From Spirochaetota bacterium (GTDB lineage: Bacteria > Spirochaetota > Spirochaetia > Treponematales > UBA12059), in contig JAKPPT010000112.1 in the NCBI GenBank assembly GCA_029547205.1, positions 1-64,000 on the forward strand: a stretch of 64,000 nucleotides of DNA, read 5' to 3'. A model generated the notes under the pieces. That model did not search any database. It saw only the letters and a program-made list of their open reading frames with translations, and was not told where the DNA came from. This document shows, piece after piece, positions 7,208-61,977 of the stretch (positions are counted from its first letter, which is position 1; each line of letters starts with the position of its first letter). Both the position numbers and the translations under genes were made by a program.

Positions 7208-9132
7208 TGAAAAATCAATTTGCAGAACTTCTCGAATTTTGCACAGAGTATTGGCAGCTTCGTGGTATTACTCAAGACGAATCGTGGGAATCGTTTTATC
7301 AAAGGGTTTTAGATAATTTTGTCCGCTTTGCAGAGCAATTGTATTGTTTGTATGGACAGAGAGCTGAATTTGGTTTTCAGGTTGCAACAATAATTGAAAA
7401 TTTATTTTATGCATACAAACAGAGGCCGGCATATTTAAAAAAACGTGATGAACAGTTTCCTGTTGAATCTAGCTGGTATCTTTCGCAGAATATGATTGGA
7501 GCCGTAGCGTATGTTGATCGATTTGCAGAATCCTTTAAAGGTATTCAAGAACGTGTTCCTTATTTGCAGGAACTTGGAATTACCTATCTGCATGTGATGC
7601 CATTTTATAAGAGCCCTGAAAAAGAAAACGATGGAGGGTATGCTGTTTCAAGCTATCGTGAAACCGATCCTAAGCTTGGAACAATTCATGATGTACAGGA
7701 GTTATCAAAGGTATTGCTCGATAGGGGTATAGTACTCGTAGCTGATTTTATTTTTAATCATACATCCGATGAGCATGAATGGGCGCTCAAGGCAAAAGCT
7801 GGAAATAAAACATTTGAGCAATTTTACTGGACATTTGCAAATTACGAAGAGGTACAAGAGTATCAGGTTTATCTTCGCGATATTTTTCCGGAAGTGCGTA
7901 AAGGTTCATTTACATACTGTAAGGAACTAGGGAAATGGGTATGGACGACATTTCATTCATACCAGTGGGATTTGCGGTATGAAAACCCTGCTGTGTTTAA
8001 TGCAATGGTCCAGGAAATGCTCGCAATTGCAAATAACGGAATATCGGTGCTGCGTCTCGATGCAGTAGCCTTTACCTGGAAACGTAAAGGTACCTCCTGT
8101 GAAAATCTGCCAGAAGCTCATACGTTGATACAGGCATTCAGAACTGCAGCAAAAATTGTAGCACCATCACTCCTGTTTAAATCTGAAGCTATCGTGCATC
8201 CTGCGGAAATTGCTAAATACATTGATAGAGAAGAATGTCAGCTTTCATATAATCCACTTTTAATGGCTGAACTGTGGGAAGCGTGTGCAACAAAAGAAGT
8301 GCGACTGCTCGTACACTCTCTTCGAAAACATTTTCATATTCCAGAGGGTTGTGCATGGGTTAACTATATCCGCTGTCATGATGATATAGGCTGGACATTT
8401 GCTGATGAGGATGCAGCAGAACTTGGCATCAATGGATATGACCACAGGAAATTTCTCAATGAGTTTTACATGGGTCTTTTCCCCGGAAGCTTCAGCAGGG
8501 GTGTGAGCTTTCAGTACAATCCGCAAACTGGAGACAGGAGAATTTGCGGAACTGCTGCATCACTTGCTGGTGTAGAGTTAGCGCTCGAACACGGTAATGG
8601 CTATGATCTCGATCGGGCTGTACGTAGATTGCTGATGCTCTATGGCATTATATACGCAGTGAGCGGTATACCGCTTGTATATCTGGGAGACGAGCTTGCA
8701 GCGCTCAACGACTATTCTTATGAGCAGGATCCACATCGCTGCTCAGATACCAGGTGGGTGCATAGACCACGCTGGTTAGAACAGCATTATAACGATAGGC
8801 ATACCATTACTACACTGGCTGGAAAAGTATTCACAACATTCTGCATGTATGGGCGTATCAGGAAAGCACATGATATTTTTGGGACAGGAGAATTGGAAAT
8901 TCTGGATTCCGAACATCCTTCGATTTTAGCACTCAGAAAACAGAACGGAAATACAATTTTATTTGTTATTGCAAATTTTTCTGAACACAATGTTAGCATG
9001 CCTGCTTGGCGGTTTCATAATCATACAGGTGGAAAATCTGGAAGAGATCTCCTGACAGGGAAATTGCTTGGAGATGGTGAGGAACTCATGCTTGAATCGT
9101 GCGGTATTGTATGGCTGCTATATGGAGCATAA
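7207..9132 (+). CDS. Amylosucrase-family glycoside hydrolase (GH13 subfamily 4)
   Basis: This 641-residue cytoplasmic enzyme has no signal peptide. It matches the known pattern of amylosucrase along its length: a helical N-terminal domain (1-90), then the barrel with 'DGGYAVSSY' (141-149), 'DFIFNHTS', nucleophile Asp285 in RLDAVAF, acid/base Glu327 in KSEAIVH, and Asp392 in HDDIGWTFADEDAA. Amylosucrase transfers glucose from sucrose onto alpha-glucan and releases fructose; close relatives simply hydrolyse sucrose, and sequence alone does not separate the two. The reading frame stays open upstream, but the ATG coupled to the permease stop gives the family's normal length. The sugar kinase at 10215 could take the fructose. 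Confidence 0.88.
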   Translation: MKNQFAELLEFCTEYWQLRGITQDESWESFYQRVLDNFVRFAEQLYCLYGQRAEFGFQVATIIENLFYAYKQRPAYLKKRDEQFPVESSWYLSQNMIGAVAYVDRFAESFKGIQERVPYLQELGITYLHVMPFYKSPEKENDGGYAVSSYRETDPKLGTIHDVQELSKVLLDRGIVLVADFIFNHTSDEHEWALKAKAGNKTFEQFYWTFANYEEVQEYQVYLRDIFPEVRKGSFTYCKELGKWVWTTFHSYQWDLRYENPAVFNAMVQEMLAIANNGISVLRLDAVAFTWKRKGTSCENLPEAHTLIQAFRTAAKIVAPSLLFKSEAIVHPAEIAKYIDREECQLSYNPLLMAELWEACATKEVRLLVHSLRKHFHIPEGCAWVNYIRCHDDIGWTFADEDAAELGINGYDHRKFLNEFYMGLFPGSFSRGVSFQYNPQTGDRRICGTAASLAGVELALEHGNGYDLDRAVRRLLMLYGIIYAVSGIPLVYLGDELAALNDYSYEQDPHRCSDTRWVHRPRWLEQHYNDRHTITTLAGKVFTTFCMYGRIRKAHDIFGTGELEILDSEHPSILALRKQNGNTILFVIANFSEHNVSMPAWRFHNHTGGKSGRDLLTGKLLGDGEELMLESCGIVWLLYGA

Positions 9133-60777: not shown

Positions 60778-60812
60778 AAGGGCTGCCCTGAAGTTGGCAG
60801 CCCTTACTTTTT
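60778..60812 (+). terminator. Rho-independent terminator of the glycerol-3-phosphate operon
   Basis: AAGGGCTGCC (60778-60787) pairs with GGCAGCCCTT (60796-60805) around an 8-base loop and is followed by ACTTTTT. It lies before the convergent hsp20 gene's end. Confidence 0.88.
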
Positions 60813-60842: not shown

Positions 60843-61376
60843 TTACTGAAATGAAGGATTATCGTTGTCTTCTTCTCTAATAATGGAAATCTTAATGCCT
60901 TCCTGCTGCTCCGGCTGTTCTTTTGGTGGCACTGTAACACGGAGAATACCGTTTTTAAATACAGCTTTTACAGCCTGCTGATCAAACTTGTCTGTCGGAA
61001 CATAGTATTTTTGTTTTTCTATGTCTTTAAGTTTTAGCCGTCGTTTGAAATAGCGGATATCCTGATTTTCTGTAGCTGTAGGAGCGATTCGTGCTGAAAA
61101 GTTCATATAATCTCCGGTAAAGCTCAGATCGATATCCTTTTCATCAAAGCCAGCAAGTGCGAACTCAAAAACCAGTTCACGGTTAGCAGTAAGATAAATG
61201 TTCATTGGTGGGTACGAATAGCTAGGATACCAATCGATGTTCTCATGTTCTTCATTCCATGAGAAAAATGGGTTTCCCTGTCCAAACGTCTGCTGAGCCT
61301 GCTCTGAAAATTTTTTTGCAGTCTCAAAGATTTCGTCCAGCATGGACCCAATGTCAAAATACATCCTGTTTTTCAT
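60843..61376 (-). CDS. Small heat-shock protein (Hsp20/alpha-crystallin)
   Basis: This 177-residue chaperone has the alpha-crystallin domain at about residues 60-160: 'NRELVFEFALAGFDEKDIDLSF', then 'AVKAVFKNGILRVTVPPKE' with the A-x-x-x-n-GvL motif as GILRV. A short flexible N-terminus and a tail with 'GIKISIIRE' (an I-x-I-like oligomer anchor) flank it. The ATG at 61376 follows AAGGAGGAT; a longer frame exists but lacks such a site. The leader folds into three hairpins that cover the ribosome site and start codon, suggesting thermal control of translation. Confidence 0.93.
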   Translation of the reverse strand: MKNRMYFDIGSMLDEIFETAKKFSEQAQQTFGQGNPFFSWNEEHENIDWYPSYSYPPMNIYLTANRELVFEFALAGFDEKDIDLSFTGDYMNFSARIAPTATENQDIRYFKRRLKLKDIEKQKYYVPTDKFDQQAVKAVFKNGILRVTVPPKEQPEQQEGIKISIIREEDNDNPSFQ

Positions 61377-61446
61377 GATGATCCTCCTTATAGGCATCAT
61401 AAATGTGCCCTCCTCAACAGGCAGGGCAGTACAGATATGCTGTACT
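61375..61446 (-). promoter_or_regulatory. hsp20 leader with RNA-thermometer-like hairpins
   Basis: On the minus strand the ~70-base leader contains three consecutive hairpins. The first is AGTACAG/CTGTACT (61446-61428). The second is GCCCT-CCT with AGG-AGGGC, one bulge (61427-61407). The third has arms ATGATG (61400-61395) and CATCAT (61380-61375); its second arm includes the AT of the start codon, and its loop holds AAGGAGG with an inner CCT able to pair with AGG. Warming would free the ribosome site. Such leaders are common on bacterial small heat-shock genes. Confidence 0.55.
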
Positions 61447-61452
61447 AGAATA

Positions 61453-61481
61453 AATATACTATAAATCTATCTGTGTGGCAA
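61453..61481 (-). promoter_or_regulatory. hsp20 promoter
   Basis: On the minus strand, TTGCCA (61481-61476) and TATATT (61458-61453) are 17 bases apart, each 5 of 6 to consensus. It overlaps the end of the upstream TPR gene, and transcription would begin near 61446, right at the first leader hairpin. Confidence 0.6.
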
Positions 61482-61977
61482 TTTTTTGGGCAAGTTCGGT
61501 TAGTCCGAGTGTCTCATACGTGTCTCGTAAATTGATGAGTGCATCTTGATATGTAGGATTATAGGCTATTGCTTGTTCAAAAAAGTGTCTGGCTTCTTCA
61601 TAGTTTCCTTGAACAAAATTGAGTACTCCAAAATTGTTGAGTGCTTCTGGAAATGCTGGGTTTATTAGTAACGATTGGCTGTAATAGCGCTCAGCCTCTT
61701 CATAACAATGGAGACCATACCATGCAAGACCCATATTGTTATAGAGTTCGGCGGTTTTCTCGCCAAGTGTTTCAGCCCTGGTAAAAGCTTCCACTGCCTG
61801 TTCTGGCTTGTTGAGTGCAAGGTATTCAATACCAAGATTGTACCAAAGCACACTCGCATCTGGTTCGAGGTCACAGGCAGCTTTGAATAGTGTTACAGCT
61901 TCCTCATGATTTCCATGCGTGGAAGCCGCAAGCGCTTCGAGCGAATACTGTTCTGCTGTTTTACCCCTGGATGACAT
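61459..61977 (-). CDS. TPR-repeat protein
   Basis: This 172-residue protein is made of about four to five TPR units, for example 'ALNKPEQAVEAFTRAETLG' and 'QGNYEEARHFFEQAIAYNP'. The start at 61977 overlaps the last 17 bases of the preceding membrane protein gene. A longer frame to 62034 would add a hydrophobic leader with a cysteine, but that stretch is the shadow of the neighbour's membrane helix and is not preferred. It is probably cytoplasmic and co-expressed with the three genes upstream. Partners are unknown. Confidence 0.8.
   Translation of the reverse strand: MSSRGKTAEQYSLEALAASTHGNHEEAVTLFKAACDLEPDASVLWYNLGIEYLALNKPEQAVEAFTRAETLGEKTAELYNNMGLAWYGLHCYEEAERYYSQSLLINPAFPEALNNFGVLNFVQGNYEEARHFFEQAIAYNPTYQDALINLRDTYETLGLTELAQKIATQIDL

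Follow-up and report, generated by a model that had tools for sequence, protein, structure and literature searches.

The closest described systems are the ROSE elements, which are known mainly from alpha- and gammaproteobacteria and have small heat shock genes as their usual targets (PMC4166951). As portrayed in PMC3669281, PMC9450479 and PMC4166951, a ROSE-like leader combines two to four hairpins, the 3'-proximal one of which pairs the Shine-Dalgarno (SD) sequence with the motif U(U/C)GCU opposite. The titles and abstracts of papers naming both RNA thermometers and Treponema report no hsp20 thermometer. In a 64,000-nucleotide stretch of DNA from a bacterium of the Spirochaetota (contig JAKPPT010000112.1, hereafter the window), we describe an hsp20 leader which, with a probability that we put at about 0.57, would be a thermosensor of ROSE type that acts in cis on the translation of the spirochaete hsp20 mRNA.

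The hsp20 leader and its predicted fold

The features of the locus are collected in Table 1. The predicted leader (minus strand, 61446-61377, about 70 nt) is occupied over its whole length by three successive predicted hairpins. The preliminary description of this DNA had proposed such an arrangement, and the fold was reproduced: the minimum free energy (MFE) of an 87-nt stretch is -30.5 kcal/mol (z -3.75), and none of 200 shuffles folds equally well. When the 5' part alone was shuffled, the SD and coding bases being held fixed, the MFE gave a z of -3.84 and the start codon was equally closed in only 2% of the shuffles. A small heat shock leader with three hairpins falls within the two to four hairpins of ROSE-like elements. 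By inspection, the site of hairpin 1 holds a bulged-G hairpin in eight family members.

Table 1. Features of the hsp20 locus and the basis on which each was assigned.
Feature	Positions	Strand	Basis
hsp20 coding sequence, 177 aa	60843..61376	minus	PF00011 E 1.1e-10; orthologues found across order
Hairpin 3, SD/start-codon hairpin; alternative form AUGAU[G]CCU-AUAAGG-AGG-AUCAU	61372..61403	minus	predicted fold
Shine-Dalgarno AAGGAGG	61383..61389	minus	read from sequence
Hairpin 2 (element A), GCCCU[G]CCU-GUUG-AGG-AGGGC	61407..61427	minus	model R1 match, ATG distance, relatives' covariation
Hairpin 1, AGUACAG-CAUAU-CUGUACU, 7 bp, unbulged in this genome	61428..61446	minus	predicted fold
Putative sigma-70-type promoter TTGCCA-17-TATATT; predicted transcript start ~61446	61453..61481	minus	10/12 match

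The promoter, which had been said to place the transcript start exactly before the first hairpin, is on its own match at the level of chance, such matches being no more frequent in the window than expected (4 found against 6.1). Its second half gains from the relatives, however, since in 35 of 76 leaders a TATATT precedes the conserved hairpin by no more than 60 nt, where shuffles give an expectation of 3.7, and this conservation suggests that the leader is transcribed. Past hsp20, at 60778-60805, a strong G+C-rich inverted repeat is terminator-like on the plus strand. A HrcA/CIRCE operator was considered as a candidate and set aside by eye only.

A bulged-G hairpin conserved in the Treponematales

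The strongest conservation in the leader is that of hairpin 2, not that of the SD hairpin, and hairpin 2 leaves the SD uncovered. A single bulged G separates its outer 5 bp from the inner 3 bp, which close a loop of 4 nt, and a bulged-G hairpin of equal quality occurs in 2 of the 1598 80-nt tiles of the window. It stands 29 nt from the ATG, the corresponding distance being 26-29 nt in the family members. Orthologues from related genomes provided 94 distinct hsp20 leaders, most of which, from the Treponematales, present upstream of the SD a hairpin that follows the pattern stem-YC-[G]-CYC-loop-GRG-GR-stem. The 21-nt and 23-nt length classes of this hairpin were modelled separately; a joint MAFFT alignment put gaps wrongly.

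Covariation in relatives had been named at the outset as a way of checking the proposed structure, and hairpin 2 does covary. In the 21-nt form (36 leaders) 97.2% of the cells are paired and 49 show a double change against 17.4 after shuffling, slid controls being low, and in the 23-nt form (20 leaders) 92.2% are paired with 32 double changes against 7.9; these sequences were chosen partly because they pair at the three innermost positions and at the two outer ones closest to these, and the fair evidence is the covariation of the further outer pairs, because pairing there was not required in the selection. The relatives compared all lie outside the genus of the window, and their covariation concerns hairpin 2 rather than the exact form of hairpin 3.

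In a search of 61300-61500, hairpin 2 is the best match of model R1, aligned over all 21 positions without a gap, with 10 bits and an E of 0.014 for that stretch, a score that is low because the core reads CU[G]CC and not CC[G]CU; a search of the whole window with R1 misses it, and it is found only when the leader alone is searched. Elsewhere in the window, R1 aligns weakly to 8302-8351 (15.3 bits, E 0.18), where the loop takes up an insert of 30 nt.

The bulged G is a general property of these leaders. When one-base bulges were counted in the predicted structures, related leaders being treated as independent, a G bulged on the 5' arm was found 1.17 times per leader in the family and 1.03 times in the others, whereas dinucleotide shuffles gave 0.09 and control genes 0.19, and there was no enrichment of A, C or U bulges or of 3'-arm bulges in the same leaders. 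The SD itself lies in a bulged-G hairpin in 15 of 28 leaders against 29 of 202 controls, with a p of 1.1e-5 that is optimistic because the group of 28, made up of family f1 and a second, hand-assembled set (f4 and similar-looking leaders), was formed after the leaders had been inspected. The SD hairpins of this set are not enriched in A, C or T bulges. By the same measure the window has no bulged-G hairpin on its SD; the motif UCGCU is present at the SD hairpin in five leaders, L024 among them.

Genome-wide R1 matches outside the hsp20 leaders are mostly chance-like, the exceptions being found, in the family of the window, before genes of three kinds. In L151 to L154, this bulged-G hairpin precedes an MFS transporter gene, both in genus g8 and, its loop being larger there, in genome G009, and a compensating stem change is seen among the MFS leaders. 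Five leaders, including L195, carry a bulged-G hairpin about 50 nt before the ATG together with a bulged-G SD hairpin, ahead of a gene for an exported protein with repeats (about 390-436 aa); the one protein checked, that of L195, has no Pfam match. In five other leaders, element A lies about 64-108 nt before the start of a second hsp20 paralogue.

Resemblance to annotated ROSE elements

The comparison set consisted of ibpA from E. coli and eight alphaproteobacterial hsp20 loci carried on plasmids, and Rfam calls ROSE or ROSE_2 in eight of these nine loci, the exception being L219. Model R1 was built from spirochaete hairpins alone, before the alphaproteobacterial loci were seen, and was run without filters at E up to 3. 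On the eight alphaproteobacterial loci, 12 of its 19 matches, including the top five, fall inside the ROSE stretch, where about one was expected; ten of them are in Rfam-called stretches and two in the equivalent stretch of L219, and together they cover both ROSE hairpins. The binomial p of 6e-11 for this coincidence is overstated, because related loci are treated as independent. Furthermore, the RF00435 consensus starts with CCGGCC[G]CC-UUAU-GG-GGCCGG, which has the same topology as hairpin 2, and the upstream bulged-G hairpin of RF00435 thus has its equivalent in the window.

At the level of annotated families, Rfam returned nothing meaningful for the window, for 19 loci or for 20 short leaders. 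RF00435 gave no match to the window at E 10 and none above the cut-off in the family genomes, and RF01832 none over the cut-off in 23 family genomes; the spirochaete leader nearest to RF00435, that of L024, scores 17 bits against a gathering cut-off of 45. In hairpin 3 of the window, the motif U(U/C)GCU is absent opposite the SD, the anti-SD being AUGCC, and the SD faces GCCU instead of the four U of a fourU thermometer. The preliminary description had seen a ROSE-type layout in a sequence without obvious resemblance to ROSE or fourU. The first half of this judgement is strengthened by the conserved bulged-G hairpins, their covariation and the match of hairpins across phyla, although the window is without U(U/C)GCU opposite its SD; the second half agrees with the Rfam scans and the missing motifs. 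The membership of the window leader in ROSE is not established.

The hairpin of the Shine-Dalgarno and start codon

The last hairpin had been drawn with 6-base arms (ATGATG/CATCAT) taking in two bases of the start codon, and with an inner CCT able to pair with AAGGAGG. The start codon is indeed paired in the predicted fold, but in a larger stem of 9 bp (UUUAUGAUG/CAUCAUGAA) that takes in all of the AUG; start-codon stems of 9 bp or more are present in 9 of 651 control genes. The inner CCU also pairs as proposed, but because it does so with the second AGG alone, the SD is only partly closed, with a predicted 58% unpaired at 37 °C. In L004, a different start-codon stem (AUAGU/ACUAU) surrounds the same GCCU...AGG core. 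A hairpin formed by the bases before the AUG with codons 2-3 carries little weight, because real pairs (-2.82) are only slightly better than swapped ones (-2.35).

Over all the leaders of the relatives, openness of the SD averages higher than that of control genes (0.56 against 0.41, p 4e-8), and outside the family of the window the SD is mostly fairly open. This argues against SD closure being the mechanism common to these leaders, and it is where the thermosensor reading is weakest.

Predicted temperature behaviour and alternative readings

In silico, the start codon of the window is almost fully paired up to 55 °C and stays closed to about 60 °C, the SD is about 58% open at all temperatures and hairpin 2 holds together up to at least 70 °C. 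Treated likewise, the SD of E. coli ibpA is 0.07 open at 25 °C and 0.14 at 50 °C, and the predicted melting is indecisive either way because this validated thermometer also looks flat.

The high stability of hairpin 2, the most conserved part of the leader, would also suit a leader that is structured without sensing temperature, in which this hairpin would be a 5' stabiliser of the mRNA or the site of an RNA-binding protein controlling hsp20 and a few other genes. The mostly open SD outside the family of the window agrees with such a role, as does the occurrence, within that family, of the same hairpin before the hsp20 paralogue, the exported protein and the MFS transporter, which is expected of a shared binding site. 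We nevertheless consider it unlikely, the same type of hairpin being regular in annotated ROSE elements, and the bulged-G hairpin lying on the SD too in many family members.

The closure of the start codon up to 55 °C could alternatively mean that hairpin 3 does no more than slow initiation constitutively, as a brake that would not respond to heat. The equally flat ibpA SD speaks against this argument, and the class of the gene and the likeness to ROSE favour regulation, which makes a simple brake improbable. Finally, it is hardly credible that the in-frame upstream ATG (61400), with the SD GAGGAGGG of hairpin 2 then masked by that hairpin, is the real or an alternative start: the reading frame is open from 61400 (ATGATG), GGAGGG stands about 7 nt before that ATG and an upstream ATG in frame is likewise seen in two relatives (L015 and L022), but most relatives lack an in-frame start there and the orthologous proteins begin MKGNR, in agreement with 61376.

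Proposed model

The thermosensor model builds on four computed results: a predicted three-hairpin fold, a hairpin 2 that is conserved and covaries, a paired start codon and a likeness to annotated ROSE hairpins. That one hairpin is kept across the Treponematales and is shaped like the ROSE hairpins makes the leader a probable heat switch of a type absent from Rfam. According to this model, the leader would be transcribed with hsp20, and hairpins 1 and 2 would form a stable scaffold that probably aids the folding of hairpin 3 and protects the RNA. At growth temperature, hairpin 3 would shut the start codon, together with some of the SD; heat shock would melt it in vivo, the 30S subunit would bind and hsp20 translation would thereby come under the control of temperature. 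In one sentence, both the layout and a hairpin type of this leader are ROSE-like, whereas the function is what we infer.

More tentatively, the Treponematales may possess an unlisted ROSE-type class of thermosensor made of tandem bulged-G hairpins, which would serve hsp20 and, in the family of the window, further genes. Could the bulged-G hairpin be a module common to spirochaete and proteobacterial thermometers? We advance this with the same reserve. If true, an order-wide spirochaete relative would extend the ROSE-type heat switches to another phylum, and this family new to Rfam would offer many natural variants for probing the role of the bulged G. The finding points to the upstream hairpin common to ROSE-like elements, a hairpin whose role is described in PMC3669281 as not fully understood.

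Comparison with known thermosensors

The ROSE element RF00435 of rhizobial hsp genes shares with the window a small heat shock leader and a first bulged-G hairpin of the same topology. Its final hairpin, which has a bulged G, encloses the SD, and by eye, in a likeness left unscored, its sequence AUGUUGCUCUAAGGAGGAU recalls AUGAUGCCUAUAAGGAGGAU of the window; unlike in RF00435, the core opposite the SD of the window is AUGCC and the start codon lies inside a 9-bp stem. The ROSE_2 element (RF01832) of E. coli ibpA has three predicted hairpins, and in all of them a G is bulged from the 5' arm. Its hairpin II, GACCU[G]UCCA, resembles GCCCU[G]CCU of hairpin 2, and at the SD of ibpA the element reads CUC[G]CUG...CAG-GAG; in silico, the start codon of ibpA is mostly open whereas that of the window is closed.

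In layout, hairpin 3 resembles the Synechocystis hsp17 thermometer as reported in PMC4477652, where the start codon lies in one stem and the ribosome-binding site in an inner stem with a bulge between them; unlike the window leader, hsp17 is a single hairpin with a 1x3 internal loop. The ROSE-G elements described in PMC12857270 carry CUGCU, whose bulged G faces another one in the SD, and are reported upstream of ABC transporter genes. The SD hairpin of the window is without the double bulge, and its hairpin 2 has CU[G]CC; the leader of L195 folds as GCUC[G]CCU...AGG[G]GAGU, in the manner of the ROSE-G double bulge.
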